Below are positions 28,656-53,177 of a stretch of 64,000 bases of DNA, piece after piece. Source of the stretch: Neobacillus vireti (GTDB lineage: Bacteria > Bacillota > Bacilli > Bacillales > Cytobacillaceae); NCBI RefSeq assembly GCF_001026695.1, contig NZ_LDNB01000002.1, positions 805,149 to 869,148 on the forward strand, read 5' to 3'. The translations under genes were made by a program, and so were the position numbers. Numbering within the stretch: the stretch's first letter is position 1; every line of letters starts with the position of its first letter. The notes under the pieces are model-generated. The model did no database searches. It worked only from the letters and a program-made list of their open reading frames with translations, and was not told where the DNA came from.

Positions 28656-28769
28656 GAATATATACCAAGGTAATCCTTCGGTACATAAACGAAAGTGATT
28701 TTGATAATGAAGTTCTAAAGATACTTAAAAAGATGATTATTACGTTCATGACTTTTGGAGGATGCTAGC

Positions 28770-29117
28770 ATGCTTATTGTAGGCAGAGAAATCGGACAAT
28801 CCGTGATCATAGCTGACGTCATTAAAGTGACTGTACTACAAATTGGTTCCAAACTGCGGTTAGCCATTGATGCACCACAGCATATGCGCATTTCTCAAGT
28901 CAAACAAACTGGAAGTAGTAAGGACAAGTTGAAAAGGGGTGCTAGAATCATCGGTGCCACTACGCTTATTGGAGATTTGATAAAAGTAACGATTCTCCAT
29001 ACTGAATCAGGATTACTCCGCTTTGCGATCGATGCACCAAAAGAAATTAGCATCTTTCGAGAGGAATTGTATAAAGAAAACTTCTTATCAATTAATCAAA
29101 ATGTACTCAGTCTTTAG
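28770..29117 (+). CDS. Tandem-fused CsrA-like RNA-binding protein (two CsrA units)
   Basis: CsrA is a dimeric translational repressor, best known in Bacillus for blocking flagellin mRNA. Normal CsrA is about 60-75 aa; this one is 115 aa and contains two units, MLIVGREIGQSVIIADVIKV...IDAPQHMRI (1-47) and RIIGATTLIGDLIKVTI...IDAPKEISIFREELY (about 58-105). Unit 1 keeps the beta-1 Arg (GRE) but has lost the RNA-contacting Arg after the DAP motif (ISQ). Unit 2 keeps that Arg (IFRE) but has lost the beta-1 one. The ATG at 28770 is 9 bp after GGAGG. No fliW is in the window. RNA binding is inferred. Confidence 0.85.
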   Translation: MLIVGREIGQSVIIADVIKVTVLQIGSKLRLAIDAPQHMRISQVKQTGSSKDKLKRGARIIGATTLIGDLIKVTILHTESGLLRFAIDAPKEISIFREELYKENFLSINQNVLSL

Positions 29118-29118
29118 A

Positions 29119-29257
29119 TTTTGATATTTTTATCAAAAATCATTTCTAGTTAACTACTTTTGATAATAGACCCATTGGGTTTTATTATAAATAATCTTCA
29201 AAAGGGAAATATCCCAATCGAAATCAAATTTTATTATTATAGGGAGGAAAAGTAATT
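29119..29257 (+). promoter_or_regulatory. Structured flagellin leader
   Basis: The 140 bp before flagellin hold an inverted repeat TTTTGATA/TATCAAAA (29119-29138), another TTTTGATA (29158-29165), and an ATTGGG (29174-29179)/CCCAAT (29213-29218) pairing that encloses GGGAAATATCCC. The ribosome site is AGGGAGG (29241-29247). GGA triplets at 29205 and in the ribosome site are possible CsrA contacts. No sigma-D promoter is visible inside this leader. Confidence 0.45.
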
Positions 29258-30974
29258 ATGCAAATTAACCACAATCTTACAGCAATGAACACACTTCGTC
29301 AGTTGAATACTGCTTCTAACGCCCAGGGTAAATCGATGGAGAAATTATCTTCAGGTCTTCGTATTAACCGTGCTGGAGATGACGCAGCAGGCTTAGCGAT
29401 TTCTGAAAAAATGCGTGGACAAATTCGTGGGTTAGATATGGCTTCTAAGAATGCACAAGATGGTATTTCATTAATTTCAACTGCTGAAGGAGCTTTGAAT
29501 GAAACGCATGATATTCTTCAACGTATGCGAGAACTTTCTGTTCAATCTGCAAATGATACAAATACATTAGATGATAGAAAAGAAATTCAAAAAGAAGTTG
29601 AACAATTAAAGTCTGAAATCAACCGCATTTCTGAAACTACAGAGTTCAATACTCAAAAGTTATTAAATGGTAGCTTGGGAGTTTCAGGGACTTCTAGTGA
29701 TAAATCAAAAGTTGATATCACAACGGCTACTGGACTAGCACAAGGTAACTATACAGTTACTGTTGATACAGCAGCAACAAAAGCAAGTGCTGCTGCTGGT
29801 TCCGCAGACGTAAAGACTGCTCCAGTAGATGTTTCAGCAAAAGAATTGGTAATCAATGGAACAAAGATTGATTTTAGTGGTATGACTGCTGCAACTCAAA
29901 CCGATATTTTAAATAAAATTAATGAGTATTCAAATGTTACTGGAGTGAAAGCTACTGCTGGTGGTAATAATGTAAAATTAGACCAAACTGAGTTCGGTTC
30001 CGAAAAGAAAATTGTTCTTGGTGGTGCTGACGCTGCTGAATTTGGTGGAGTAATTACAGCTGGAAAAGATGCAGTAGTTACAATTGCTGGTCCAGATAGC
30101 GCTACACAACAGGTGGCTGGTTTAGGTCAAACTGTAGGGTTTAAAGGGGCTGAATTAGTTGCAAAAGGTGCAGCTACTGAATCGGCAACTATCACTGTAA
30201 CTGGTGGTGGAGCAACTCTTCACATTGGTGCTAATAAAGGTCAAAGTATGTCAGTTGATATTAATGAGATTAGTACAAATACGCTTGGTGATAAAGCAAA
30301 TAATGATTTAGTAAAAGATATTAACTTAACTACACAAAAGGGTTCAAATGATGCACAAAAAGTTTTAGACGAAGCTATTAAACAGGTATCAGGAGAACGT
30401 TCTAAACTTGGCTCTTTCCAAAATCGTTTAGAGCATACAATTAATAACTTAAGCACTTCTTCTGAAAACTTAACTGCTGCGGAATCACGTGTACGTGACG
30501 TAGATTATGCTTTAGCTGCTTAAGCGGTGACAAGCACAGTCGTCCTAGCTGGTAACGGCTAGTGATTATTATCGGGTGAATTGCTGGAAACCCCTTAGAG
30601 CTTTTCTTACCACAACGTTGTTGGAAACGGCAAGCGTGATGGTTTGAAAAAAGAAAAGATTGGGCAATCAGCAGCCGAGCTCCTGTCTCGAAAGAGTGGA
30701 GAAGGTTCAACGACTAGGATAGACCATCTAAGGCGAAAGCTATGATGATGAAATCCATAGGTGAAACAATGGTCATCAGCATTGTGAATCCGAAGTGCCC
30801 GACCCCTACTAATCATAGAGGGTGAAGATATAGTCTAGTCATTTATGAAAGTAAATGTTCGCACGATGGCGAAAGAAATGATGAACTAAGAACTCGATTC
30901 TTGCACAAGCAGCACAAGCAATGTTGGCTCAAGCAAATCAGCAGCCACAGGGCGTACTTCAACTTCTTCGTTAA
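29258..30974 (+). pseudogene. hag: Flagellin gene copy 1, intron-split, 3' exon frameshifted
   Basis: The 5' exon (29258-30505) encodes a normal flagellin N-terminus (MQINHNLTAMNTLRQLNTAS), D1 helices, a variable centre and the C-terminal D1 up to SRVRDVD. A group I intron follows (30506-30865). The 3' exon begins MAKEMMN at 30866 but then meets TAA at 30887-30889, because five bases present in copy 2 (CAAAC) are missing. The rest of the D0 helix (KNSILAQ...LQLLR) remains out of frame up to 30974. Even after splicing the product would lack about 30 C-terminal residues needed for polymerisation and FliS binding. A strong AGGGAGG site precedes the ATG. Confidence 0.85.
30506..30865 (+). ncRNA. 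Group I self-splicing intron in flagellin copy 1
   Basis: A 360-nt sequence with the conserved core elements P (GAATTGCTGGAAA, about 30578-30594), Q (GCAATCAGCAGCC, about 30664-30680), R (GGTTCAACGACTAGG, about 30703-30719) and S (AAGATATAGTC, about 30824-30836). Splicing after GAT (30505) and after G 30865 joins DVD to MAKEMMN, exactly the normal flagellin sequence. P1 can form between exon GAU and intron GUC in AGUCGUC, giving the needed U-G pair at the 5' site. Unspliced RNA stops five codons into the intron (YALAA). No endonuclease is encoded inside. Group I introns in flagellin genes have been reported for Geobacillus. Confidence 0.92.
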
Positions 30975-30990
30975 TTTTAAAATATTTGAA

Positions 30991-31020
30991 AGGGACTCTA
31001 GTATTACTAGGGTCTCTTTT
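30991..31020 (+). terminator. Terminator after flagellin copy 1
   Basis: GGGACTCTAGTA pairs with TACTAGGGTCT and is followed by CTTTT. It is homologous to the terminator after copy 2, and similarity between the two flagellin regions ends here. Confidence 0.82.
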
Positions 31021-31042
31021 CACACATAGGGGGGTGAATTAA

Positions 31043-31237
31043 GTGAATATAGTTGAAGAATATGAAAAAGAAATAGCAGGTAGACTTGTGAGTATAGTAG
31101 TTAGGCACGAACAAGATAAACCATTGCCTTATTATGCTGTAAGTTCACTTAATGTTGATGGTTCTGGAAAAACTTTAGAAGAAGCAAAGATGAAATGTGA
31201 AAATGCAACTAAGATGGAAATAAGCATGAACAGGTAG
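31043..31237 (+). CDS. Small protein of unknown function
   Basis: A 64-residue acidic/basic mixed protein (MNIVEEYEKEIAGRLVSIVV...) with a GTG start and a GGGGGGTG ribosome site. I do not recognise it. It has no membrane segment; YYAVSSLNVDGSGKTLEEAK suggests a compact alpha/beta fold. It is the first gene of the element, just past the flagellin terminator. Confidence 0.55.
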   Translation: MNIVEEYEKEIAGRLVSIVVRHEQDKPLPYYAVSSLNVDGSGKTLEEAKMKCENATKMEISMNR

Positions 31238-31477
31238 ATTCGATTGCCAGTCCACGGAAGCATATGGACGGTTAAAAGTAGGAATGGACAGCCAACAGCT
31301 ATCACCATTTACGCAGTGAAAGTATAAATTATGCATTTTGGCATTCTAGGAACTGCTGGAAGGCGAAACAACTAGAATATCAAGCATATATCATAATATT
31401 AACATGATGTTCATCAAAACGGGGCTTTTCTCTTCGGAGGGAAGTCCTTTTTCTATTTTGGAGGAGGAATCGTAATC
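31238..31477 (+). other. Noncoding leader before radC-like gene
   Basis: About 240 bp with no convincing gene. Near the end GGGCTT and AAGTCC form a hairpin with a T run (about 31421-31455), a possible terminator or attenuator just before the ribosome site of the next gene. Confidence 0.4.
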
Positions 31478-31930
31478 ATGAAAAATCAATCTGCAAAACG
31501 TGTAAACATTGTAAACCTAAAGTTAGTAAAGGAATCAAGCATGCTTTACAAAAATCGTTGTGTACGAAGCTCTGAAGATGGCTATCAATTGTTGAAGCAA
31601 TTCTTAGGAGACATGGATAGGGAGTATTTTGTTGTTATTTGTTTGGACACAAAAAATCAGCCAACAGCCATTAACATCTGTCACATTGGAAGCCTAAACG
31701 CAAGCATAGGACATCCAAGAGAATGCTTCAAGCCTGCCATTTTGAGTAACGCAGCATCAATCCTTGTTAGTCATAACCATCCTAGCGGGAAAAGTGGCGA
31801 AAGCAGGGAGGATGTGGAGGTCACTAAAAGATTAGTACAGGCAGGTAAAATCATAGGTATTGACGTGATTGACCATATAGTGCTGGGTGATGGGGAGTAT
31901 GTTTCTCTCAAGGAAAAAGGTTACATTTGA
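31478..31930 (+). CDS. RadC-like JAB/MPN metalloprotein of mobile elements
   Basis: A 150-residue protein consisting of the RadC/JAB domain. The zinc-binding JAMM-type motif is visible as SHNHPSGKSGESREDVEVT (about residues 98-116), followed by IDVIDHIVLGDGEYVSLKEKGYI, typical of RadC. The N-terminal HhH region of chromosomal RadC is absent, as in short RadC proteins on plasmids and integrative elements. The function of this family is not settled. AGGAGGA site. Confidence 0.9.
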   Translation: MKNQSAKRVNIVNLKLVKESSMLYKNRCVRSSEDGYQLLKQFLGDMDREYFVVICLDTKNQPTAINICHIGSLNASIGHPRECFKPAILSNAASILVSHNHPSGKSGESREDVEVTKRLVQAGKIIGIDVIDHIVLGDGEYVSLKEKGYI

Positions 31931-31943
31931 ATGGAGGAAATTG

Positions 31944-32246
31944 ATGATGAATCTAAAATGGTTTACTGGAAGAATGAAGAAGATTTTTAATGTTGATGTC
32001 AAAATGGACGAAGTAGGATATGAAGCTTTGGATTTCTGTCATGAAGAACTGGATGATTTGCTCATTCCAGCGGAACACTTAGAAAAGCTGCCTGACCCTT
32101 TGCTCCTTGACACGCTCTCGTATGTGGATGATAAGGGATATGAGTGGATAGCAGGCTTTGTCTTGGAAGATGAAACGAAAAGAAGGTTGTACGAAGTTTG
32201 GATAAGGAACGGGGAACAAATTGCCTATGAAATGTATTTTGACTAA
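31944..32246 (+). CDS. Hypothetical acidic protein
   Basis: About 100 residues, rich in Asp/Glu (DFCHEELDDLLIPAEHLEKL), with no membrane segment. ATG 31944 is preferred since GGAGG lies about 8 bp upstream; earlier in-frame starts lie inside the radC-like gene. Not recognised. It is probably co-expressed with the radC-like gene, whose stop is 13 bp upstream. Confidence 0.6.
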   Translation: MMNLKWFTGRMKKIFNVDVKMDEVGYEALDFCHEELDDLLIPAEHLEKLPDPLLLDTLSYVDDKGYEWIAGFVLEDETKRRLYEVWIRNGEQIAYEMYFD

Positions 32247-32437
32247 AATTCATTTGAACGTTTTTGCCAAGCAGATTTCGCGACATTTCTTTCTGTTTAC
32301 TCATGACAAAACTATTTGGACAATTATTCACAATTGCAGAATGTATGAGCGGCAAAGAATCGGTATCATTTCTGTATGAAAAAACTGTCGACATTATTAT
32401 ATAACTGTCGTGAGCTGGTTAAGAAAGGAACAGGAAA

Positions 32438-32500
32438 ATGAATACAAAGAAAACGTAAATAGCTATTGGTGTATGAATGCGTACATCAATAGCCTTTTTT
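32438..32500 (+). promoter_or_regulatory. Six-codon leader ORF plus terminator/attenuator hairpin
   Basis: A tiny ORF, MNTKKT (32438-32458), has an AGGAACAGG site. Four bases after its stop, GCTATTGGTGTA (32462-32473) pairs with TACATCAATAGC (32482-32493), a 12-bp stem with one G-T pair, followed by CTTTTTT. The tyrosine recombinase ribosome site comes directly after. The arrangement resembles translation-coupled attenuation but may simply terminate upstream transcription. Confidence 0.55.
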
Positions 32501-32522
32501 CATTTTTGGAGGTGAATCAATC

Positions 32523-33392
32523 TTGGAAATTGATGAATTTGAACAATGGCTCTTTACAGATGGGAAAGCAGCCAAAACAATCGAGTCCTATGTGAACGAT
32601 GTCAAAGGATTCCAATCATATTTACAAGAGAAGTTTAAGGGTGTTCCAGTCTTATCCCGCTTCTCATTTGTGAGGTACAAGGAACATTTGATGAAGGATG
32701 GCTATGCCATTTCTACCATCAACAAGAAGATTAATAGCCTAAAGGTCTACAACGATTTTCTAAGAACCGAAGGAGCCCTAAGTGAATCATTCATTCAGTT
32801 GAAGCGGGATAGAATCAAAATTGCCGCTGGAAGTGAGGTCAATGTAGATGCACTTTCAGAAGAACAGGTGGAGCAATTGCTTTTCTATGTTGAAAACAGA
32901 GGCAAAGTTAGCACTCGTAACAAGCTGGTTGTCTATTTGTTGCTCTATACGGGTGTAAGGGTCAGTGAATTAGTTTCAATCAAGATTACAGACATTGATT
33001 TCTTGACGAATCAATTGACGGTGATTGGCAAAGGCGAAAAGAGACGTGAAATCGGGCTTAGACAGGATGTACTTCAATTAGTAAGGGACTACATGAAGGA
33101 AGAGCGTTCGGGGTCTATTTTCAGCTATAGCGACTATTTGTTAGTAAGCCAGAGGGCAGAAAAAATGCACCGTGACGCAGTGAGGGATTGGTTAGCAAAA
33201 GTTTCAAAAGTACTAGGGTTCAAACTGCATCCACATTTGTTTCGGCATACGTTTTGTACAAGGTTGTTGAAAAAAGGTGTAGACCTTACGACTGTAAGCA
33301 AGCTGGCGGGGCATTCCACTGTGAATATGACAGCAAGGTTCTACATCCAAACAACCAAGCAAGAGAAGATGGATGCGGTGAATTTATTATAA
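32523..33392 (+). CDS. Tyrosine recombinase/integrase 1
   Basis: A 289-residue phage-integrase-family enzyme with an N-terminal SAM-like core-binding domain (1-95) and a catalytic domain. Visible catalytic residues: Arg in YTGVRVSELVSI, Lys in GKGEKR, His/Arg in HPHLFRHTFCTRLL, His in LAGHST, and the likely nucleophile Tyr in ARFYIQTT. TTG start 10 bp after GGAGG. XerC/D-like size. It follows a leader with a terminator hairpin. Confidence 0.94.
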   Translation: MEIDEFEQWLFTDGKAAKTIESYVNDVKGFQSYLQEKFKGVPVLSRFSFVRYKEHLMKDGYAISTINKKINSLKVYNDFLRTEGALSESFIQLKRDRIKIAAGSEVNVDALSEEQVEQLLFYVENRGKVSTRNKLVVYLLLYTGVRVSELVSIKITDIDFLTNQLTVIGKGEKRREIGLRQDVLQLVRDYMKEERSGSIFSYSDYLLVSQRAEKMHRDAVRDWLAKVSKVLGFKLHPHLFRHTFCTRLLKKGVDLTTVSKLAGHSTVNMTARFYIQTTKQEKMDAVNLL

Positions 33393-33406
33393 AGGCGGTG
33401 GCGGAA

Positions 33407-33712
33407 TTGTTTGAAAAGGACAAGCCAAGATACGTAACAAGACAAATCGCTTCAGATGTGAGTATGGAAATACAGACATTGCTTTGGAGGATGATTGGCA
33501 AGCGTAGGAGCAATCAAGAACTATTGGATTATTTACAAGTGTTTCATCTTCAAAGAAGCGGTGATATGCAAAGGATTACAAACAAGCAGGAACAGCCGCT
33601 AATGGAAATGGCTGTCCAATTGGAACTGAAAGAGAGTCAATCTTTTGATACAACCATTTGGATTGTGGATGATGGTTCCCATTGTACTATGATGTTTCCA
33701 AATGACTACTGA
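33407..33712 (+). CDS. DUF960-family protein
   Basis: A 101-residue protein with FEKDKPRYVTRQIASDVSME and LDYLQVFHL, which I recognise as the DUF960 family found on Firmicute mobile elements. Function unknown. The TTG at 33407 is preferred, with AAAGG 11 bp upstream; longer readings run back into the recombinase gene. It starts 15 bp after the recombinase stop. Confidence 0.7.
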   Translation: MFEKDKPRYVTRQIASDVSMEIQTLLWRMIGKRRSNQELLDYLQVFHLQRSGDMQRITNKQEQPLMEMAVQLELKESQSFDTTIWIVDDGSHCTMMFPNDY

Positions 33713-33726
33713 TTGGAGGGAAAAGA

Positions 33727-33819
33727 ATGGATACTAAGCAAATTCTAATCATCAAAAAAGTGGTATGTGCTATTTTGGTTATTGCTTTGGAAGAATTATC
33801 AAAGAAAAATAGAAGGTAA
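33727..33819 (+). CDS. Small hydrophobic peptide gene
   Basis: A 30-codon ORF (MDTKQILIIKKVVCAILVIA...) with GGAGG 7 bp before the ATG and a terminator directly after. The centre is hydrophobic and could span or associate with the membrane. Not recognised; position and ribosome site are the only support. Confidence 0.45.
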   Translation: MDTKQILIIKKVVCAILVIALEELSKKNRR

Positions 33820-33844
33820 AAGGAATCGCAATTTTTGCATGATG

Positions 33845-33878
33845 AACAGGAATCCATAATTGATTCTTGTTTTTTTTG
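33845..33878 (+). terminator. Rho-independent terminator
   Basis: AACAGGAATC (33845-33854) pairs with GATTCTTGTT (33862-33871), followed by eight T. It closes the radC-recombinase-DUF960 gene group. Confidence 0.85.
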
Positions 33879-33879
33879 A

Positions 33880-34373
33880 CATTCTTTTGACTGCCTAATG
33901 AAGGGTCAGAAGAGGCAATAGCAACAGTTTGATGCTACTGACGCTACTATAGGCAATGAGCAGTACGGTCACATCGGATAGAAATTTTTTTCAAGATATA
34001 AATGGAAAATAAGGGTGAATAATCTTTCAGCAGATTATCTTTTGAAAAAAGCTTCTAATTTGTGTCTAAATTGTGACGGTCAGCAAGACTTAGTCTACAA
34101 GTCCGAAAAAATCAGATTGAATATTAAAATGAGTTGGAATTATTTTATTTTAATCGCGAACAGATAGGAATTTTTTTCAATTATTTCAATCTGGAAGACT
34201 CGTAGACCTAGCATAAACGTCTGAAATAGTTTATTTGTGAATTTACCAAAACCGTTGATATATAAGGGTTTGTTGTTGAATTGCAATATGTTTTTAGGTG
34301 TAATATTATGTCTCTTGCAAGGAAGTTGCTAAAACTATTTCAAAAAAATGGAGCTTATCGGAGGGTCATAAAA
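33880..34373 (+). other. Long noncoding region of the element, candidate origin/control region
   Basis: About 490 bp without a gene. It holds one copy of GCTACTGACGCTAC (33934-33947), an AGACTTAGTCT palindrome near 34089, GTCTAC/GTAGAC in opposite orientation about 110 bp apart, and several A/T tracts. It precedes the OB-fold-like and primase-helicase genes, a usual place for a replication origin. This is inference only. Confidence 0.4.
33934..33947 (+). repeat. Element-specific repeat, copy a (GCTACTGACGCTAC)
   Basis: One of at least five copies, in both orientations, of a GCTACTGACGCTA motif found inside the element (others at 34904-34916, 37497-37509 and 37522-37534 as an inverted pair, and 39043-39054 inverted). 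Likely a protein-binding site for the initiator or a recombinase. Confidence 0.6.
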
Positions 34374-34850
34374 ATGCAAAAACTTCAATCGAAATTAGTT
34401 CGTCCTTCAAACAAGTATTTCTTTGATGATGGAGCCAAGAATGGAAAAATCTTTTCCGTGGATGTTAAAGAGTTTGATAGTTACTATCACGATTCAGGCA
34501 AGCGAGTTGCCCTTAACACCAAAGTAGAGTTTATAAAACCTAATGGTGAATTTTTCTACTTGTATTACGCTCCAACTATCACATGGTCTGAAAAAGGAAA
34601 GTTTTTGAAAATGCTTCACGACTTAGATGTTGTTCCAGCGGAAGGTGAAGAACTGGATATTAATGCACTAGTAGGTATGAATGTAACAGCTACGATTGAA
34701 AACGTGGAACGTGACAATGTTGTTTACAGCAATATTGTTAGAATCCAAAAAAGAGGTACTAGTACTCAAGCTAAAGCACAGAAAGAAGAAGATAGCGAAA
34801 TGATGAAGCAACTTTTTGATGTAGATGATATCGACTTCGGTGACATGTAA
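34374..34850 (+). CDS. Hypothetical protein, possible OB-fold ssDNA-binding type
   Basis: A 158-residue protein whose C-terminal half reads VGMNVTATIENVERDNVVYS, reminiscent of phage OB-fold/DUF669-like single-strand-binding proteins, then an acidic tail ending DVDDIDFGDM. Acidic C-terminal tips are typical of SSBs. The ATG at 34374 follows GGAGGG by 7 bp; earlier starts have none. It lies just before the primase-helicase, consistent with a replication role, but the assignment is tentative. Confidence 0.5.
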   Translation: MQKLQSKLVRPSNKYFFDDGAKNGKIFSVDVKEFDSYYHDSGKRVALNTKVEFIKPNGEFFYLYYAPTITWSEKGKFLKMLHDLDVVPAEGEELDINALVGMNVTATIENVERDNVVYSNIVRIQKRGTSTQAKAQKEEDSEMMKQLFDVDDIDFGDM

Positions 34851-34903
34851 TATCCCTAATAAAGCAACAGTACAGGCTATAGCGGCAATGGTTGGTATAG
34901 TCG

Positions 34904-34916
34904 GTACTGACGCTAC
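34904..34916 (+). repeat. Element-specific repeat, copy b (GTACTGACGCTAC)
   Basis: A near-identical copy of the GCTACTGACGCTAC motif just upstream of the primase-helicase ribosome site. The preceding GCAACAGT also matches the sequence preceding copy a. Confidence 0.55.
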
Positions 34917-34947
34917 ATGAGACAAAACAAAAAGGAGACGAACAAGA

Positions 34948-37473
34948 ATGACACATATAGAAGCAAGTACAACTGAGGAAATGATAATGGAATCCCTTTC
35001 CATGTTGAAACGAAACGAGGATGTAACAGAATTACGCATCTTGAAAACAACTAAAGGCACAGTTAGTGGATACTTCGACGATTACCAAAAGTTAGCGGAT
35101 GTCGTAGCGGAATATGACGGAAAAGTTCCAGCAATCTATTTTACTCTTAATCCCGCAAAACCTGATTTGCTTTCAAGGGCAGCAAACCGTGTTATACAAC
35201 GAGCAAAGAATACGACTGCAGATGCTGACATTGAATGCAGACGTTGGCTTCCGATTGATTTTGACCCTGTTCGTCCATCTGGTATTTCATCAACAGATGA
35301 AGAACACAAAGCCGCTCACACAATGGCAAAAGAAGTGAAACAATTTTTGACGGGCAGGGGTTGGAGTGAACCGATTGTAGCTGATAGCGGCAATGGTGTG
35401 CATCTTATCAAACAAGCGTTGGAAGCATTGGACTTCCAATTCAGTAGTGAATCAGTCAATGTTGATAGAAGCGTATATAATGCCGCTCGAATTTGGAAGC
35501 TTTATGGCACAATGGCTTGCAAAGGCGACCATACAGATGAACGCCCACATCGGTTATCACAAATTTTGACCTATCCAGAAGAACTGAAAGAGGTATCGAA
35601 GGAACAACTACAGGCATTAGCCTCTTTATGTCCAAAAGTTTCGAAGCCAACTTCCAAAAAGGGCAATATGGAAGAAGGGTTTGATTTGGATTCATTCATT
35701 GAACAACATCAACTGGATGTTTCCTTTATCGCTCCATGGCAAAAAGGGGCAACCAAGTATGTATTATCAACTTGTCCATGGAATGAAAGTCATACGAATG
35801 GAAGTGCCTTTATTATCCACTTTACTAATGGTGGAATTGCTGCAGGTTGCCATCATAATAGCTGTTCAGAAGAAAACTGGCAAACATTACGGAAGAAGTT
35901 TGAGCCGAATTGGAATCCAACTTCCCAAAATGAGGAATCCAAAAAGGAATCACAAGCGGACATTTTGATTGGGGTAGGCGAAGAGGCTGAGTTCTTCCAA
36001 AATGATTTGGGAGATGCCTTTGCTGCGGTAACCATTAATGGTCATAAAGAAGTATTAAAAGTGAAAAGTAAGAAATTTAAAATGTGGCTAACAAAGCAAT
36101 TCTATGACGCTACAAAAAAAGCACCAACTAGTGATGCAATGAATCAAGCACTAGGGGTCATGGAAATGAAAGCAGCCTTTGACGGGGATGAACATAGCTT
36201 GCAGTTGCGAGTGGCGGAAAAGGATGGCGCATTTTACTATGACTTAGCCAATGAGGATTGGAGTGTTGTAAAGGTTGAGCCGAATGCTTGCCATATATTG
36301 AATGAACCGCCAATCCTATTTACTCGCAATAAGAATACGAAAGCACAAGTATTGCCTGATTTTACAGGTGATTTAAAACGATTACTAAATCATGTGCGAA
36401 TTAAAAATGAAGATGACCAAATTCTTTATCTCACTTATGTTGTTACTTGCCTTATTTCGACTATTCCGCATGCTGTACTGGTATTCAGCGGAGAAAAAGG
36501 AGCATCTAAATCCACTTCCATGCGATTAACTAGACAAATCGTTGACCCCGCCGTACAAGATTTGCTTACAATGCCTAATAGTTTGCAAGACTTGGCACTA
36601 TCATTGGCAAACAACTACATGCCATCTTTTGATAATTTAGATGGTTTGTCAGCCGAAAAAAGCGACCTATTATGTATTGCTTCTACAGGTGGTGGGTTTA
36701 GCAAGCGCACATTGTTTACAGATGATGATGAAACATTACTTGAACTCCGACGATGTGTTGGATTGACAGGTATCAATGTAGTTGTCACAAGAGCGGATTT
36801 GATTGACCGTTCAATCATCATTGAATTAGACCGTATTCCAGAGGATGAACGAAAAGAAGAACGAGATGTATGGGAGTCATTTGAAAAGGATAGAGCATCC
36901 ATTGTGGGAGGAGCCTTGCAAGCTTTGGCAAACGCAATGGCTATCTATCCAAACGTGAAATTAGACAAACTCCCAAGGATGGCTGATTTTACCCGATGGG
37001 GCTATGCGATTGCAGAAGTTTTAGGGTATGATGGTGAGCGCTTTTTACAGGCTTATCGTAAGAATCTTAATCAATCCAACGAAGAAGCCATTTCTTCACA
37101 TCCAGTAGCCGCTACCGTTGTAGCTCTAATGAAAGACAAACAAAAATGGTCAGGCTCCGTTGCTAGTTTGCTAGGTGAACTAGAACGTGTAGCGGAACAA
37201 GAAAAGATTAATACCAAAGTCAAAACATTCCCGAAAGCGGCTCACATTTTGAGTAGAAGGCTAAAGGAAGTGAAGTCTAATTTGGAGGATGTTGGGATTA
37301 CATTTGACATTAGACATGCAGGAGATTCCAAAAAGGTATCCATTCAAAAGTCTGGTAACAAGGTTGTTCCCATTCGTCCACAAAAAGGAACATTGAAACG
37401 GACAGGAACCGATTCAAATGAAGTCACAGATATTGAGCTGTCAGAAGGTTACGATGAATTTGCGGGATGGTAA
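34948..37473 (+). CDS. AEP-type primase fused to helicase/ATPase
   Basis: An 841-residue replication protein. The N-terminal third carries archaeo-eukaryotic primase motifs: PIDFDP with the paired Asp at about 104/106, SGNGVHL with His at about 152, and RIWKLYGT downstream. A possible zinc-binding segment (CPWNESHTN...CHHNSC) lies near 275-310. The C-terminal part is a P-loop ATPase/helicase with Walker A GEKGASKST (about 515-523), SFDNLDGLS as Walker B-like, and arginine-finger-like VVTRADLIDRS. Proteins of this build replicate plasmids and integrative elements, so the element may replicate autonomously after excision. Confidence 0.88.
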   Translation: MTHIEASTTEEMIMESLSMLKRNEDVTELRILKTTKGTVSGYFDDYQKLADVVAEYDGKVPAIYFTLNPAKPDLLSRAANRVIQRAKNTTADADIECRRWLPIDFDPVRPSGISSTDEEHKAAHTMAKEVKQFLTGRGWSEPIVADSGNGVHLIKQALEALDFQFSSESVNVDRSVYNAARIWKLYGTMACKGDHTDERPHRLSQILTYPEELKEVSKEQLQALASLCPKVSKPTSKKGNMEEGFDLDSFIEQHQLDVSFIAPWQKGATKYVLSTCPWNESHTNGSAFIIHFTNGGIAAGCHHNSCSEENWQTLRKKFEPNWNPTSQNEESKKESQADILIGVGEEAEFFQNDLGDAFAAVTINGHKEVLKVKSKKFKMWLTKQFYDATKKAPTSDAMNQALGVMEMKAAFDGDEHSLQLRVAEKDGAFYYDLANEDWSVVKVEPNACHILNEPPILFTRNKNTKAQVLPDFTGDLKRLLNHVRIKNEDDQILYLTYVVTCLISTIPHAVLVFSGEKGASKSTSMRLTRQIVDPAVQDLLTMPNSLQDLALSLANNYMPSFDNLDGLSAEKSDLLCIASTGGGFSKRTLFTDDDETLLELRRCVGLTGINVVVTRADLIDRSIIIELDRIPEDERKEERDVWESFEKDRASIVGGALQALANAMAIYPNVKLDKLPRMADFTRWGYAIAEVLGYDGERFLQAYRKNLNQSNEEAISSHPVAATVVALMKDKQKWSGSVASLLGELERVAEQEKINTKVKTFPKAAHILSRRLKEVKSNLEDVGITFDIRHAGDSKKVSIQKSGNKVVPIRPQKGTLKRTGTDSNEVTDIELSEGYDEFAGW

Positions 37474-37496
37474 TCATCCTTTTTTTACACCAACAG

Positions 37497-37534
37497 TAGT
37501 GTCAGTAGCGAAAGAAGCGTTGCTACTGACGCTA
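37497..37534 (+). repeat. Inverted pair of element-specific repeats upstream of recombinase 2
   Basis: TAGTGTCAGTAGC (37497-37509) and GCTACTGACGCTA (37522-37534) are inverted copies, 12 of 13 positions complementary, separated by 12 bp. They lie about 80 bp upstream of recombinase 2. The arrangement, two inverted arms around a short spacer, is that of a tyrosine-recombinase or initiator binding site. Confidence 0.65.
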
Positions 37535-37616
37535 TTGGAGGCAGTTCCCACCCGAATCAAAACGAGAATCAAAAATTATATTATTACCTTGTATTTATTG
37601 GAAAGGGGATATTGAC

Positions 37617-38474
37617 ATGTTATTCATGGAATCAGTTGAACTCTTTGGAAGGTACCAAGCAAACATTGAACGAAGTCCAGTAACCATAAAAGCCTATAAT
37701 GAGGATTTGTCACTTTTGAGCCGTTATCTTGAAGAAAAATACAACAGTCCAGTTTACCTAGAGGACATTACACAAGAGGATGTGCAGGAGTATCTTTATT
37801 ATCTGAAGGAGGTTAAAGGGCAGCAGCCAATTAGCAGAAAACGTGTGTTAGGGAGCATGCGGTCATTCTTCGGCTATGCCTACAAAAGCGAATGGTGCGA
37901 CAAAAACGTAACTGCAAGACTAGAGCCAATCAAATGTCAGCAAAAGGAGCGGCAATATCTATCAGAAAAAGAAGTTAATCAGTTTGTGGATGCGATTCAA
38001 CACAAATTGGCTCGATTAGTGGCACAAACCCTTTATTTCACTGGAATGCGTATTTCCGAATGCCTAAACCTACAAGTGGATGATGTCGATTTAGAAGAAA
38101 ATCTCATTCACATTAGACATGGGAAGGGGAACAAAGACCGTTTTGTTCCAATCAATTCAAAATTGAAGGGGTTACTTGTGGATTACACGGAAAACTGGAG
38201 GGTGAATTCTGACTACTTCTTTGCCACAAGGAACACGGGTATGTTTTCAAAAACTAGAGTATCCAAGATATTTAGGGATACAAATCTAGCATTGGGATGG
38301 AAAAAGAACGTGACCGCACACATTTTGCGTCATTCCTTTGCTTCAAAACTTGTCCAAAACGATGTTCACTTGGTCAAGATTTCAAAATTGCTGGGGCATA
38401 GCAGCCTAAAAACAACGAGCATTTATGTCCACAGCAATATGGATGATTTGAAAGATGCTGTTAATACGTTGTAA
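37617..38474 (+). CDS. Tyrosine recombinase/integrase 2
   Basis: A 285-residue XerC/D-type recombinase with an N-terminal core-binding domain and catalytic residues Arg in YFTGMRISECLNL, Lys in GKGNKDRF, HxxR in AHILRHSFASKL, His in LLGHSS, and Tyr in TSIYVHSN. It is only moderately similar to recombinase 1. Two distinct tyrosine recombinases in one element recall Tn554-like or tandem-recombinase elements. Start at 37617 with GAAAGGGGA upstream; an ATG follows at codon 4. Confidence 0.93.
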   Translation: MLFMESVELFGRYQANIERSPVTIKAYNEDLSLLSRYLEEKYNSPVYLEDITQEDVQEYLYYLKEVKGQQPISRKRVLGSMRSFFGYAYKSEWCDKNVTARLEPIKCQQKERQYLSEKEVNQFVDAIQHKLARLVAQTLYFTGMRISECLNLQVDDVDLEENLIHIRHGKGNKDRFVPINSKLKGLLVDYTENWRVNSDYFFATRNTGMFSKTRVSKIFRDTNLALGWKKNVTAHILRHSFASKLVQNDVHLVKISKLLGHSSLKTTSIYVHSNMDDLKDAVNTL

Positions 38475-38488
38475 AGGAGAGAGAGCAA

Positions 38489-39262
38489 ATGGCTAAAGCG
38501 GAAGTATTGCAACCGATTTATGATGACAAGGTCAAAAAGATATTGAAATTATTGGGTGATGGTTTTTCAAGGGAAGAAGTCGCTGCCCAGTTTCAGTATT
38601 CAACTTATCGTTCGATGGATGGCTATATGGGTCGTAAGAACTTTGTTTGGGACAAGCGAAAAAATACTTATGTACCAGCGGATTCTATAAAAGCTTCACT
38701 TGAAACAATGGTGAATTTCCCATCAGACCGAGTCCGAAGAATCGAAATGGAATTGAACAAGGAAGGGGCGGATTTGAAGGAGGTTGCATCGAAGGTAGGA
38801 TTCGAAAATCATTTGGAAATGGCTTCTTATATGAAGTCAAAAGGCTTTGAATGGTCACAGGAAGCGGGGAATTATCTCTCTACTTCTCCGACCGTACCTA
38901 ATGATGAGGGAGGAGTTGCTACTTCCAGTATTGACGCTTCATTAGAGGGCTCGCTCTGTGTTGGGAACGGCGGTATGGAGCAATTCCTACCTTTACTCGA
39001 ATGGTTAGTTTCCAACAAGGAGGGCTTGCAAAGTCTTTTAGGAGCGTCAGTAGCGTCAGGACAAATTCCCCGCTTTACTCTTCCAGGTCAATTTATCACA
39101 AAATCAGTTCATATGACGAACACACTTGACCAAATGGTTCGAGACTTTAGTAAGGAAAAGAACATCAATCAGCGGGAAATTTTCGAGGTTGCATTGATTG
39201 AATTCTTTCAGAAGTACGGTTATGAGCGAGAAGTTGGGATATTACTGCAACAAAATGCCTAG
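38489..39262 (+). CDS. Unknown protein, possible DNA-binding recombination accessory
   Basis: A 257-residue protein starting 14 bp after recombinase 2 with an AAGGAGAGAG site, so the two are coupled. Two helix-turn-helix-like segments are visible: ILKLLGDGFSREEVAAQFQY and LNKEGADLKEVASKVGFEN. The C-terminus (TLDQMVRDFSKEKNINQREI, FEVALIEFFQKYGYE) resembles a ribbon-helix-helix or RHH-type partner region. I do not recognise the family. By position it could be a third component of the recombination system. Confidence 0.6.
   Translation: MAKAEVLQPIYDDKVKKILKLLGDGFSREEVAAQFQYSTYRSMDGYMGRKNFVWDKRKNTYVPADSIKASLETMVNFPSDRVRRIEMELNKEGADLKEVASKVGFENHLEMASYMKSKGFEWSQEAGNYLSTSPTVPNDEGGVATSSIDASLEGSLCVGNGGMEQFLPLLEWLVSNKEGLQSLLGASVASGQIPRFTLPGQFITKSVHMTNTLDQMVRDFSKEKNINQREIFEVALIEFFQKYGYEREVGILLQQNA
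39043..39054 (-). repeat. Element-specific repeat, copy inside gene
   Basis: AGCGTCAGTAGC, the inverse of GCTACTGACGCT, immediately followed by GTCAG, so that GCGTCAG occurs twice. It lies within the coding sequence of the accessory-type protein. Confidence 0.5.
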
Positions 39263-39275
39263 CAAATGGCTTTCA

Positions 39276-39346
39276 AATGGAAGAAATGATGAACAGTTTA
39301 TAATGGTTTCCTTTTGGACAACTGTTTTTCATTCTTCCATTTTTTC
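39276..39346 (+). terminator. Terminator at the right end of the element
   Basis: AATGGAAGAAT pairs with ATTCTTCCATT, with an inner AACAGT/ACTGTT stem, followed by TTTTT. It would stop element transcription before flagellin copy 2. Confidence 0.75.
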
Positions 39347-39480
39347 ATGATTTCCTAATGTTTTGGAACAGGTTCTTTCCATTATGTTTGGTTTTCCTAA
39401 TGATGCAACTTCACATTTTGCAAATTCCTTGGGTCACATGGGTTTCTGGATTGGGAAGAATTTTGATTTTGAGGTTGCTT

Positions 39481-41171
39481 TTCGTCAGTTGAATACTGCA
39501 TCAACTGCACAAACAAAATCAATGGAGAAATTATCTTCAGGTCTTCGTATCAACCGTGCGGGAGATGACGCAGCAGGTCTTGCAATCTCCGAAAAAATGC
39601 GTGGACAAATTCGTGGTTTAGACCAAGCTTCTGCAAATGCTCAAGATGGTATCTCATTGATTCAAACAGCTGAAGGTGCATTAAATGAAACTCATAGCAT
39701 TCTTCAACGTATGCGTGAATTTCTTTTCTATCGTCAAATGATACAAACACATTAGATGATAGAAAAGAAATTCAAAAAGAAATGGAACAGCTAAAATCTG
39801 AAGTTGACAGGATTTCAGGAACAACTGAGTTTAATACTCAAAAATTATTAAATGGAAGCCTTGGTGTTACAGGAACTTCCTCAGCTAAAGCTAAAGTCGA
39901 TGTTACATCTGCTACAGGATTAACAAAAGGTAATTATGATATCACGATTGATACTGCTGCAAAAAAAGCAACTGCGGTAGCTGGTACTACTGATCTTAGT
40001 GGTGCTGTAGATGTTTCTGGAAAAGAATTAGTGATTAATGGTACCAAAATTGATTTTTCAGGAATGAAAGCTGCAAAGGTACAAGATGTAGTAAATAAAA
40101 TCAATGAATACAAAGATGTTACTGGTGTACAAGCAACAATAGATGGTACTGGTAAACTTACTCAATTAGACCAAACATCATACGGCTCTAACGCAACAAT
40201 CACATTAGGTGGAGCAGATGCTTTAGAATTTGGTGGTGCTGTAACAGCAGGCGTAGATGCAGTCATTACAGTTAAGAATCCAAATGGTTCAACTGAGCAA
40301 GTAAAAGGATTAGGACAAGAAGTAGGATATCATGGTGCAGAATTTGTTGCAAAAGGTGCAGCAGCTGATACAGCAACTATTACTGTTACTGGTGGTGGTG
40401 CGTCATTACAAATTGGTGCTAATAAAGACCAAAATATGATTGTAGACATTAATGAAATCAGTACTAATACTCTTGGTGATAAAGCCAATGGTGATTATGT
40501 GAAGGATATTAATGTAACTACACAATCAGGAGCAAACGATGCAATAAAAGTTTTAGATGAGGCTATTAAACATACTTCAGCAGAACGTTCTAAACTAGGT
40601 GCATTCCAAAATCGCTTAGAACACACAATTAATAACCTAGGAACATCTTCTGAAAACCTAACTGCTGCGGAATCTCGTATCCGTGACGTAGATTATGCTT
40701 TAGCTGCCTAAGAGCAGTAACAAGCACAGTCGTCCTAGCTGGTAACGGCTAGTGAGTATTATCGGGTGAATTGCTGGAAAACCCTAAGAGCTTTTCTTAC
40801 CACAATGTAGTTGGAAACGACAAGCGTGATGGTGTGAAAAAAGAAAAGATTGGGCAATCAGCAGCCAAGCTCCTGTCTCGAAAGAGTGGAGAAGGTTCAA
40901 CGACTAGGATAAACCATCTAAGGCTTCGGCTATGATGATGAAATCCATAGGTGAAACAATGGTCATCAGCATTGTGAATCCGAAGTGCCCGGCCCCTACT
41001 AGAATGCTAGAGGGTGAAGATATAGTCTAGTCATTTATGAAAGTAAATGTTCGCACGATGGCGAAAGAAATGATGAACCAAACTAAGAACTCAATCCTTT
41101 CTCAAGCTGCTCAAGCTATGCTAGCTCAAGCAAACCAGCAGCCTCAGGGAGTTCTACAACTTCTTCGTTAA
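39481..41171 (+). pseudogene. Flagellin gene copy 2, 5'-truncated and frameshifted, intron-split
   Basis: Flagellin similarity starts abruptly with [20 protein letters not shown]; the first 12-13 codons and ribosome site are absent. After RMRE at about 39720 one base is missing relative to copy 1, so the frame is lost over SVQSAND and resumes in another frame (EMEQLKSEVDRISGTTEFNT). The rest, including the variable centre, is intact to RDVD (40691-40693), then a group I intron, then an intact 3' exon (41058-41171) coding MAKEMMNQTKNSILSQAAQA to LQLLR. The variable region differs clearly from copy 1, so this is a diverged homolog and not a fresh duplicate. Confidence 0.88.
40694..41057 (+). 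ncRNA. Group I self-splicing intron in flagellin copy 2
   Basis: A 364-nt intron at exactly the same codon boundary as in copy 1, roughly 94% identical by eye. P, Q, R and S core elements are all present. Differences keep pairing: a GAAA loop in copy 1 is TTCG here on the same stem, a G-U pair becomes A-U, and CTA..TAG lengthens to CTAG..CTAG near P9. Splicing joins RDVD to MAKEMMNQTKNSIL, the normal flagellin end. Confidence 0.92.
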
Positions 41172-41346: not shown

Positions 41347-42279
41347 TCAATCATTTAATAAAAAACAAATAGCAACAATTTGACTAACTGTTAGCCCTGT
41401 TCGATTCCTAATCGAATGTAAAAGGGTATTATATTTTTCATCTATAATAATTTGATAGCCTCTAGTCTCTTTCATTATACATCTATGTGCAATTCTTTTT
41501 TTATAAAAGTCAATATAACTTGTTCTATCCATAATAATTTCATGTAAAGTGTGCAAGTTTTGGAGTTTCTTATTGATTTCAGCTGTGGGTTTCATCACTT
41601 GAATATTGTCAGGTAAGTATATGGTTGTTCTTTTTCTAGCTTTATGAGTCTGATTTGGTGAAATTAATTTCCTCACCATAGAAGTATGCATGTAGGGCTC
41701 GACTAAGCGGAGAAAGTAAAAGATTTGTAGCTGATCATATAGTATAATGCGATTTTGAGAATCTAGCATAAAATAAAGGCGAAACTTTTTTGCTAAGAAA
41801 TCTGTTAACTGTCGGTTTTCAATTGAGGTGAAGTTGTCTGTTGAAAGGATGACTTTTTTTGGAATGTTTTCCTTTTTGGATAAATGTCCGTCATCTTGGT
41901 ACCACCAAGCTAAAGCAAGTTCAGTTAAGTTCTGGTCCAAAAAGTCAAACGGAATCCTTTTGATGCGGTTACAATACCAAATAGTCTCCAGCCATGTTAT
42001 CAACGGATCGGTCCGAGATTGTACCTGGAAACATTTAGTAAAACCCTTTTGAATTCTGTTATCCTGAACTTTCTTATAATAAGGTGGCGCTAAAGGTAAG
42101 CCATTCAGTAATTCTTCATAACAATAAAAACACCACTCTTTATCGCTAGTTGTATGAGCAAATTGAAATCGTGGTTTTCTCCCTTTCTGCATTGTAATAC
42201 ACCCATCTCCTAACAATTTTCCTGTCATCATTTGAAATATTTTAGTTGAGGCTGTTAATGAGCAGGCCAAAAAGGACAC
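41347..42279 (-). CDS. LAGLIDADG homing endonuclease, free-standing
   Basis: A 310-residue protein with two LAGLIDADG motifs, TGKLLGDGCI (about residues 19-28) and LALAWWYQDDGHLS (about 121-134), the arrangement of a two-motif monomeric homing endonuclease. The C-terminus (RTGLTVSQIVAICFLL) looks like a helix-turn-helix. It is convergent with the intron-bearing flagellin copy 2 and not inside the intron. The GTG start at 42279 abuts its AGGGGG site, so a start a few codons later (TTG, or the double ATG) is possible. Its target is inferred, not shown. Confidence 0.88.
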   Translation of the reverse strand: MSFLACSLTASTKIFQMMTGKLLGDGCITMQKGRKPRFQFAHTTSDKEWCFYCYEELLNGLPLAPPYYKKVQDNRIQKGFTKCFQVQSRTDPLITWLETIWYCNRIKRIPFDFLDQNLTELALAWWYQDDGHLSKKENIPKKVILSTDNFTSIENRQLTDFLAKKFRLYFMLDSQNRIILYDQLQIFYFLRLVEPYMHTSMVRKLISPNQTHKARKRTTIYLPDNIQVMKPTAEINKKLQNLHTLHEIIMDRTSYIDFYKKRIAHRCIMKETRGYQIIIDEKYNTLLHSIRNRTGLTVSQIVAICFLLND

Positions 42280-48962: not shown

Positions 48963-49847
48963 ATGGGTATGCGTGTGACGCAAGGAATATTGAATCAAAA
49001 TATGCTGTTTAGTTTACAGCAAAACAACAAGGCGATGGAAAAATATCAGAATCAAATTACCACGGGTAAAAAGGTAAACAAACCATCGGACGATCCTGTT
49101 ACGGCGGTGCGCGGCATGGCCTATCGTTCTTCGCTAAATGATATTGAGCAATACAAAAGGAATGCCGATGATGGACTTTCATGGATGACCACCACGGATG
49201 ACGCACTTAATGAGGTAACCGCTGTAATGCAGCGGGTGCGGGAGCTTACGGTACAAGGTCTGAACGGAACGAATGACCCAGATGCACGGTATGCTGTTGC
49301 GCAAGAAATCGATCAGTTAAAAGAACATTTAGGCGAAATTGCAAATTCTCAGATAGCTGGAAAATATATCTTTGCCGGAACGAATGCAACAACACCACCA
49401 TATTCGGTTGCATCAAAAGAGTTTGAAAATACAAATCAAGAATCAATCGATTTACAGGTGGGCCAGACAAACATAGTACAAATAAATGTTAATGGAACCA
49501 ATGTGTTTACTCATGGTGATGGCATCTTCCAAGTGCTGTCAAATATTGTCTCTGGGTTTAATTCCCCGGATGCAGGTGCGAATGATTATTTAGACCAATT
49601 AGATAGTCAGATGAATAACCTCTTAAAGGAACGGTCGGAATTGGGTGCCCGCATGAATCGTATGGAGCTAAGCATCTCACGCCTAGATGGGCTAGAGGTA
49701 TCTACAACTAGTTTAGTATCAAAAGAAGAGGATGTGGATATTTCTCGAGCGATAATCGATTTGAAGTCTCAGGAGAACGTGCAGCGGGCTGCTTTATCGA
49801 TAGGAGCGCGAATCATTCAAACTTCTTTAGTGGATTTTTTACGTTAA
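48963..49847 (+). CDS. flgL: FlgL hook-filament junction protein 3 (HAP3)
   Basis: A 294-residue flagellin-like junction protein with MRVTQGILNQNMLFSLQQNN and the flagellin-type GKKVNKPSDDP; the C-terminus carries VDISRAIIDLKSQENVQRAA. It starts 10 bp after flgK with AGGAGGG. Confidence 0.96.
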   Translation: MGMRVTQGILNQNMLFSLQQNNKAMEKYQNQITTGKKVNKPSDDPVTAVRGMAYRSSLNDIEQYKRNADDGLSWMTTTDDALNEVTAVMQRVRELTVQGLNGTNDPDARYAVAQEIDQLKEHLGEIANSQIAGKYIFAGTNATTPPYSVASKEFENTNQESIDLQVGQTNIVQINVNGTNVFTHGDGIFQVLSNIVSGFNSPDAGANDYLDQLDSQMNNLLKERSELGARMNRMELSISRLDGLEVSTTSLVSKEEDVDISRAIIDLKSQENVQRAALSIGARIIQTSLVDFLR

Positions 49848-52882: not shown

Positions 52883-53096
52883 TGGGTAATAAAGACTAAA
52901 AATGAGAGAGAAAAATTCATGAATTTATGGTAGCACATTGCTTATTTACTGTAAAAAGCATCTTTTTTGGGGGGTAAAAATAAAAATATATCTTTTGACC
53001 TAGTATTTTCGACATAAAATGATAAAATAGTAGTATATTCGCTAATGGTAAAACATTCTATTATTTAAGAGGAATATAAAAAAATCGAATCATGAT

Positions 53097-53177
53097 AAAG
53101 GCACACCTGATGAAAATCAGTGTCGCAAAGCTATAGGGACTAAGGTGCTATTGTACTATGTCAGCCAGTTACCAAAA
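53097..53177 (+). ncRNA. Cyclic-di-GMP-I riboswitch (GEMM-I)
   Basis: The aptamer pattern is clear: a CCTGATGAAAATCAG hairpin (P1b side), the conserved GTCGCAAAGCTATAGGG and CTAAGG, then CTATGTCAGCCAGTTACC, in the order and spacing of GEMM-I RNAs of Bacillaceae. A terminator hairpin at 53255-53292 follows and should form the expression platform. The controlled gene is the one at 53354. Confidence 0.92.

Follow-up and report, generated by a model that had tools for sequence, protein, structure and literature searches.

Why does a flagellar locus carry two broken flagellin genes, one on either side of a mobile element? The question is raised by a 64,000-nucleotide stretch of Neobacillus vireti (RefSeq assembly GCF_001026695.1, contig NZ_LDNB01000002.1, positions 805,149 to 869,148 of the forward strand), referred to below as the window. 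The original prediction described the two genes (copy 1 and copy 2) as broken in complementary ways, and considered a motility OFF state, an antigenic switch or decay after insertion. Our analysis verifies lesions in both copies and a mobile element between them, at 29297-39482. The layout is very probably the product of site-specific integration by an element that swaps the flagellin body, through the steps proposed below.

The element is about 10.19 kb long and resides inside the flagellin gene at codon 14 (CGT CAG). The features on which the argument depends are as follows.

29160 to 29296, forward strand: 5' part of hag kept left of the element, with the putative host promoter region, the ribosome-binding site and the first 13 codons
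29297 to 29313, forward strand: attL, CGTCAGTTGAATACTGC, the same stretch occurring again at 39483-39499
29297 to 30505, forward strand: 5' exon of the copy 1 flagellin body, element-borne, with relatives of the body in other genera
30866 to 30974, forward strand: 3' exon of copy 1, 5 nt short, with a stop at 30887-30889 and the C-terminal D0 helix lost
32523 to 33392, forward strand: int1, tyrosine recombinase (PF00589, 1.8e-38)
37617 to 38474, forward strand: int2, tyrosine recombinase that tracks the flagellin target (PF00589, 1.4e-36)
38489 to 39262, forward strand: p8, putative int2 partner of 257 amino acids, family unassigned, delimited by alignment of relatives
39333 to 39482, forward strand: conserved right end of the element, ending at T/CGTCAG, aligned in nine copies
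39483 to 39499, forward strand: attR, CGTCAGTTGAATACTGC, identical to attL; the conserved right end stops at this motif
39483 to 40693, forward strand: 5' exon of the displaced copy 2 body, without native start and apparently without promoter; frameshift at 39717-39735, the frame closing by 39755
41058 to 41171, forward strand: 3' exon of copy 2, open as far as the stop

The CGTCAG sites of the two copies are separated by 10,186 bases, in agreement with the proposal that removal of about 10.2 kb would fuse the copies. The att sites are direct repeats that flank the element, accompanied by the conserved end sequence. Copy 2 is short of its first 13 codons, the ATG among them, where a loss of 12-13 had been expected, and its similarity to copy 1 begins exactly at CGTCAG (39483). 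The missing start had been taken as one half of a complementary breakage. We do not retain this interpretation, because the CGTCAG junction recurs at 9 of the 10 flagellin-type elements, the window's included, which identifies the absent N-terminus of copy 2 as an integration scar. Likewise, the crossover had been placed by homology anywhere from 39745 onwards, and the natural point is instead the short att site at codon 14.

We propose the following course of events. The element would recombine at a short site, beginning with CGTCAG, in the conserved 5' part of a flagellin gene. Its circular form presumably carries a flagellin body with neither promoter nor start. Integration would join this incoming body to the host promoter and the first 13 codons, leading to expression of the incoming flagellin, and the resident body would be moved behind the element and fall silent. 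Repeated integration would build arrays, and excision would restore the archived body. The choice of target may follow the int2-p8 module and the right end. Int2 with p8 presumably catalyses the recombination, and excision is expected to occur. The advantage under selection would be the swapping of an exposed filament protein that may act as phage receptor or antigen. In the window genome, both bodies would have broken after integration.

The evidence for this course comes from comparison of genomes, which demonstrates the junctions themselves, shows that they recur in many hosts, and reveals that different families share body and element DNA with a sharp edge at the site. G and L numbers denote genomes and loci, respectively, in our comparison sets. 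Searches with p8 matched 15 of 299, 19 of 398, 12 of 193 and 36 of 398 genomes in overlapping sets. We scanned 62 p8 loci with flanks of up to 1.5 kb, some being shorter at contig ends. L049, L052, L053, L115, L125, L127-L133, L137, L138, L163, L165, L189-L192 and second matches without a locus were dropped from the census as fragments, duplicates or matches without a locus, and the weak p8 match L050 was retained.

Ten elements in eight genomes, one of which belongs to another class, abut a flagellin body without its own start (the window's is included in these counts). The 150-nt right end is conserved up to T/CGTCAG and is followed by a startless flagellin body in nine copies, from G000, G029, G916, G943, G888, G148, G295 (twice) and G436; the tenth, the second copy in G436, also adjoins a flagellin body, but the CGTCAG junction is absent and the copy seems decayed. 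In all six contiguous cases, the left flagellin with its own start runs through the same CGTCAG. It follows that the element begins on its left with the first flagellin's body, with att at codon 14, and since the element thus spans 29297-39482, the copy 1 body belongs to it. G295 contains two elements and three flagellin bodies in a row, with the native start only in the first. Within the window's genus, L059 and L060 are empty sites: each has a single hag with the same neighbours, and no int2, radC or primase-like match was found in the 16-kb stretch. In G028, a radC relic is found past the flagellin, unaccompanied by other element proteins, and no further copy of the element was found in the window genome. 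Separately, the flagellins of L107 (Bacillus sp. FJAT-14578) and L108 (Paenibacillus sp. XY044) are 83% and 79% identical to copy 1, and their 21-kb stretches contain no element proteins.

The clearest case of sharing is that of G029, from the window's genus, and G295, from another family, which carry the same left flagellin body. The two are only 42% identical over 300 nt upstream of the site, and their FliD proteins 34% (FliD, CsrA, FlaG, FlgL, FliS, FliF, FliG and FliI are names that we assigned by reading sequence and gene order). Identity is 72% in the first 13 codons, 91% in the first 33 nt past CGTCAG and 99.9% over the next 1491 nt. In a window scan it stays at 99-100% across the intron, a cargo gene and radC to about 3.4 kb, and then falls to 83-91%. 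Since identity jumps at att while the upstream regions and FliD differ, the flagellin body and the element DNA form, judging from these alignments, a single block that is shared between families and sharply bounded at att. The window element itself behaves similarly: compared with G148 or G295, identity is 83-94% for int1, int2, p8 and the primase-like protein and 72-76% for the smaller element open reading frames (ORFs), whereas FliD reaches 32-35% and FliS 49-50%. RadC is 94% identical between the window and G295, and was not found in the G148 stretch. Even against G436, of the same phylum and another class, int2 and p8 retain 82% and 75% identity, and int1 48%, versus 27% for FliF, 50% for FliG and 57% for FliI.

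Several observations weigh against site-specific integration of a body-swapping element, or soften it. The G029 assembly splits the left gene from the element, placing them on separate contigs that share a 31-nt end, and the G943 contig begins within the element. The exact crossover is blurred by 3 differences between G029 and G295 within the 33 nt that follow the site, and the nearly 100% block of these two genomes stops before int1, implying that the elements are mosaic and that ordinary recombination also moves pieces. Upstream regions are not cleanly sorted by host, with 49-65% identity within the genus and 32-53% to other hosts. The G436 element has an int1 of only 48% identity, and the second member of its array lacks the CGTCAG junction. 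Neither an excised circle nor an empty sibling of the window strain was seen in assembled sequences. Finally, copy 2 is presumed silent from the absence of a native start and promoter, and the selective benefit is likewise our inference.

The comparison also points to the components that choose the target gene. At 73% p8 identity or above, all 10 loci, counting that of the window, adjoin a flagellin body that lacks its native start (the body of L051 lies just outside 1.5 kb and is counted among the 10); at 47% or below, none of 52 loci has a flagellin on the same strand within the flanks of up to 1.5 kb examined. Int2 was found in eight further flagellin-type loci, at 82-94% identity to that of the window, and reaches at most 55.1% in the remaining loci. 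Int1 does not follow this pattern. The element of G194, which is of the S-layer type, resembles the window's in int1 (82%), but not in int2 (37%) or p8 (31%), whereas G916 and G943 show int1 identities of 55% and 67% and int2 identities of 94% and 87%. Because int2 and p8 identity follows the flagellin target and int1 identity does not, int2, p8 and the right end presumably select the target gene.

The two recombinases are full-length, with 3-171 and 2-170 of the 172 positions of PF00589 covered in int1 and int2, and visual inspection of their translations showed the R, K, HxxR, H and Y residues. Pfam and NCBIfam gave no match for p8, whose C-terminus weakly resembles PDB 2kel (E 0.023), presumably a small DNA-binding protein. 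The ORFs of the element from 31478 to 39262 are open, and include the following in addition to those given above.

31478 to 31930, forward strand: RadC-like JAB-domain protein of 150 amino acids (PF04002, 2.9e-39)
33188 to 33712, forward strand: ORF with DUF960 in its second half (PF06124, 2.6e-21, residues 81-172), start codon uncertain
34281 to 34850, forward strand: weak relative of NGO0469, a phage replication-initiation family (NF046043, E 6e-5, under the cut-off)
34948 to 37473, forward strand: large plasmid- or phage-type replication protein, putatively helicase/primase-like

The last protein gave no match in Pfam and NCBIfam scans; by tblastn it matched plasmid ATP-binding and hypothetical proteins with 26-33% identity over 51-60% of the query, among the 20 of 32 matches listed. 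No structural or transfer genes were recognized among the ten window proteins scanned against Pfam and NCBIfam, which argues against a temperate phage or a conjugative element. Relatives of p8 were absent from phage records, and from IMG/VR with a query that reaches close relatives only. No convincing PADLOC match to defence genes was seen among ten non-core proteins of the flagellin-type elements; the best (E 4.8e-6) covers a 28-residue stretch where Pfam assigns a SEC-C motif.

If the element merely swaps flagellin bodies, why is neither copy in the window intact? The reading frame of copy 1 begins at 29258 and stays open as far as 30523. As had been predicted, this copy possesses the start and the N-terminus and loses the C-terminal D0 region after a 5-nt loss. 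Relative to copy 2, the missing nucleotides lie about 21 nt past the junction of the 3' exon, between two AAC repeats, and the reading ends after MAKEMMN. The C-terminal D0 helix is needed for flagellin polymerization. Copy 1 is the only body with a native start, yet it has lost this helix, and is thus predicted to be unable to make a filament. In copy 2, the expected 1-nt deletion near 39720 turned out to be correct as a net change of -1, but not as a single deletion: several changes are clustered at 39717-39735, a stretch that agrees with the reverse complement of 39755-39773 in 18 of 19 positions, compared with 9 of 19 for the corresponding stretch of copy 1. The 3' exon of copy 2 is intact, as proposed. 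Template switching at quasi-palindromes is a known mutation mechanism, and a 5-nt loss between repeats is likewise a known mutation type; the copy 2 frameshift has the look of the former. The inverted copy was not seen by eye in 12 other flagellin bodies compared alongside. Neither lesion was seen in the flagellin bodies of other hosts that were compared or translated, and for this reason both are probably late and local.

A Flagellin_N search across all 27 contigs of the genome (100% complete), meant to reveal any other hag gene, had four matches: one in copy 1, two in separate pieces of copy 2, and one in a protein at 48963, which we read as FlgL from its place and sequence. Thus, no flagellin besides copies 1 and 2 was found by this search. 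The flagellar ORFs read around the two copies are open. With both bodies broken, the cell should lack flagella, and we predict that the window strain has no filament. Concerning the three fates first considered, site-specific excision would express the frameshifted copy 2; the window clone therefore does not appear to possess a simple reversible OFF switch operated by recombination of the element. An antigenic or archive role is plausible for the element family because 8 of the 9 displaced bodies aligned are open, and the private lesions of the window resemble later decay.

Four alternative explanations were weighed. That one or both lesions are assembly or sequencing errors is improbable, although it is the best surviving of the alternatives: the genome is a 27-contig draft with near-identical introns, but a 5-nt loss between repeats and an inverted copy matching at 18 of 19 positions are mutation types that would be unusual as read errors, and the layout of the element is independent of the lesions in any case. 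We consider it still less probable that the window strain uses a programmed motility or antigen switch through homologous recombination of the two broken copies. The identities between copies (exons 76.3% and 87.2%, introns 94.7%) would allow such exchange; the lesions, however, are private to this genome and resemble slippage and template-switch errors, and the bodies in other hosts are open. Of nearly the same low standing is a chance insertion between or into two old tandem flagellins followed by decay, in which the junction would be meaningless. The private lesions of both window copies are consistent with it. The same junction occurs nonetheless in nine copies with a conserved right end, the displaced bodies are open with one exception in nine, and the vertical inheritance that it requires is difficult to reconcile with int2 and p8 identities of 75-94% between the window and G148, G295 or G436 when FliD, FliF, FliG and FliI reach only 27-57%. 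It is hardly credible that the near-identical introns join copy 1 5' exon RNA to copy 2 3' exon RNA and so give flagellin without a DNA change, since, despite both exons being open, the copies are about 10 kb apart and copy 2 has no known promoter.

The introns themselves are a common passenger of these genes.

30506 to 30865, forward strand: group I intron of copy 1 (RF00028, 85.8 bits), junctions by exon homology
40694 to 41057, forward strand: group I intron of copy 2 (RF00028, 92.4 bits)
41347 to 42279, reverse strand: LAGLIDADG endonuclease (PF03161, 1.6e-27), outside the element and past the last flagellin

The Rfam matches extend over 30519-30857 and 40684-41049, covering model positions 1-253 of 253 both times, and the junctions were set by matching the conserved flagellin C-terminus and are thus approximate assignments. 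At least one intron is present in 9 of the 10 array bodies scanned (three in G295, two in G148, two in G029 and three in G436), and none was found in the decayed third body of G436. The higher identity of the introns than of the exons is as expected if homing has occurred between the copies. An endonuclease of this kind adjoins the flagellin locus on the opposite strand, outside the element, in L109, L110, L193 and L195 as well as in the window, where it is possibly the homing enzyme of the introns. Two group I introns per flagellin near the 3' end were observed in L056 (both of its two flagellins) and in L107:11251-12093. In G295 (L054:482-2145), the intron match comes after a complete C-terminus and stop; therefore, even the unspliced RNA would code for a complete flagellin, and a different C-terminus might arise through splicing.

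More distant p8 relatives adjoin other kinds of gene. To the right of p8 on the same strand, the 62 loci contain 9 flagellin, 9 S-layer-motif and 1 pilin bodies; to the left, there is none on the same strand and one S-layer motif on the opposite strand. The other 43 loci have no such body on the same strand in the scanned flanks. As a background, 1000 random 1.5-kb pieces of the fetched loci, which themselves contain such genes, gave 26 flagellin, 24 S-layer-motif and 2 pilin hits. Startless bodies with the S-layer motif, 'AIN..', follow p8 within 1.5 kb in those 9 of 62 loci, and more were read beyond cargo; since the motif was defined after examples had been seen, this count is descriptive. 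Nothing was recognized further out in some loci, such as L048 and L122. Two flagellins were left uncounted: that of L118, which possesses its own start and lies about 1.6 kb beyond p8, and that of L044, which is on the opposite strand. The S-layer-like bodies were seen only beside distant p8 relatives, and in some loci p8 is separated from the body by cargo that we interpret as Rpn-like nucleases. On L099:14128-15270, a flagellin ORF with its own start on the opposite strand is seemingly cargo of an S-layer-type element.

The common sequence of left and right genes begins at TGGCGATTAACGC in G194 and at GTGCGATTAACGC in G064, and long left-right repeats of the gene body were found in 4 of 11 loci tested (L096, L099, L100 and L101). 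SLH or SbsC domains are present in 3 of the 4 left genes scanned by Pfam. Among the right bodies (L100, L097, L101, L102 and L143), only L143 exceeds the Pfam cut-off, as Big-like; with this weak Pfam support, the S-layer label of the right bodies depends mainly on the motif and on their likeness to the left genes. In G795 (L120/L142), a p8-type element abuts a type IV pilin without leader peptide (L142:16441-16830, N_methyl 1.3e-6); being a single case with no pilin left of the element, it is a lead only. Plasmid relatives of p8 occur in 1 of 72,556 records, a Haliovirga abyssi plasmid (L114, NZ_AP027060.1) with three tandem p8 units, one integrase being interrupted by an IS3 element. The units lie near large RHS-repeat genes, possibly a further type of target.

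These relatives suggest a more general proposal, for and against which we judge the balance to be even: widespread elements, homing through their int2-p8 module to the 5' part of genes that encode the most exposed polymers of the cell (flagellin, S-layer, perhaps type IV pilin), would swap the body behind the host promoter and stack old versions as a retrievable archive, making spread and surface change one event. Spread of the element would then itself change surface identity, for example that of a phage receptor, and if excision is real, the arrays are stores of flagellin alleles. Exchange at the att site would explain the highly different flagellin bodies behind host-specific flagellin starts in unrelated bacteria, and provides a directly testable mechanism by which a mobile element could exchange a surface polymer in a site-specific way. 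The presence of the recombinase-partner module at S-layer-like genes suggests a general route for surface change. Because displaced bodies have no native start codon, gene annotation can miss such change. Two further observations were made in the window: CsrA appears by eye as a tandem duplication inside one ORF directly before the flagellin (28755-29117), and a c-di-GMP-I riboswitch (77.2 bits) lies in the flagellar cluster at 53090-53176.

How does this arrangement compare with known systems? In integrations of the e14/icd and tRNA type, the incoming element supplies part of the target gene, which stays readable. The replaced part there is a short, near-identical 3' end, whereas in the window type it is almost the whole body, in the form of a divergent allele. 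Salmonella Hin and the surface-gene inversions of Campylobacter or Lactobacillus combine an expression site with silent copies of surface proteins, as the window does; theirs operate by inversion within one genome, whereas the window variants arrive on a mobile element. The window att sites are direct and not inverted repeats, which argues against an invertible flagellar phase switch. Some reported islands carry integrases that are specific for the dusA 5' end (PMC4482086). Like the window element, they bear an integrase and lie inside the 5' end of a protein-coding gene, but exchange of the gene body is not described in the abstract portion of that report. Group I introns in bacterial flagellin genes are known from another account (PMC3984707); the RF00028 introns of the window are of the same kind, and are a separate feature riding in the same genes.

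We found no description, in the open-access literature, of an element that integrates in flagellin genes; the flagellin version thus appears undescribed, and an S-layer precedent is known second-hand. In Bacillus (Lysinibacillus) sphaericus JG-A12 and NCTC 9602 (Pollmann et al. 2005), according to a later account (PMC3573754), the chromosomal S-layer gene is followed by transposase, integrase/recombinase and helix-turn-helix ORFs and an S-layer-like copy. By this description the layout resembles that of the window, with a recombinase and other genes between the chromosomal surface gene and a second copy, although the parallel of p8 as DNA-binding partner rests on the weak 2kel match. By the same account, the B. 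sphaericus elements target S-layer genes, whereas the window element and its nine closest p8 relatives adjoin flagellin.

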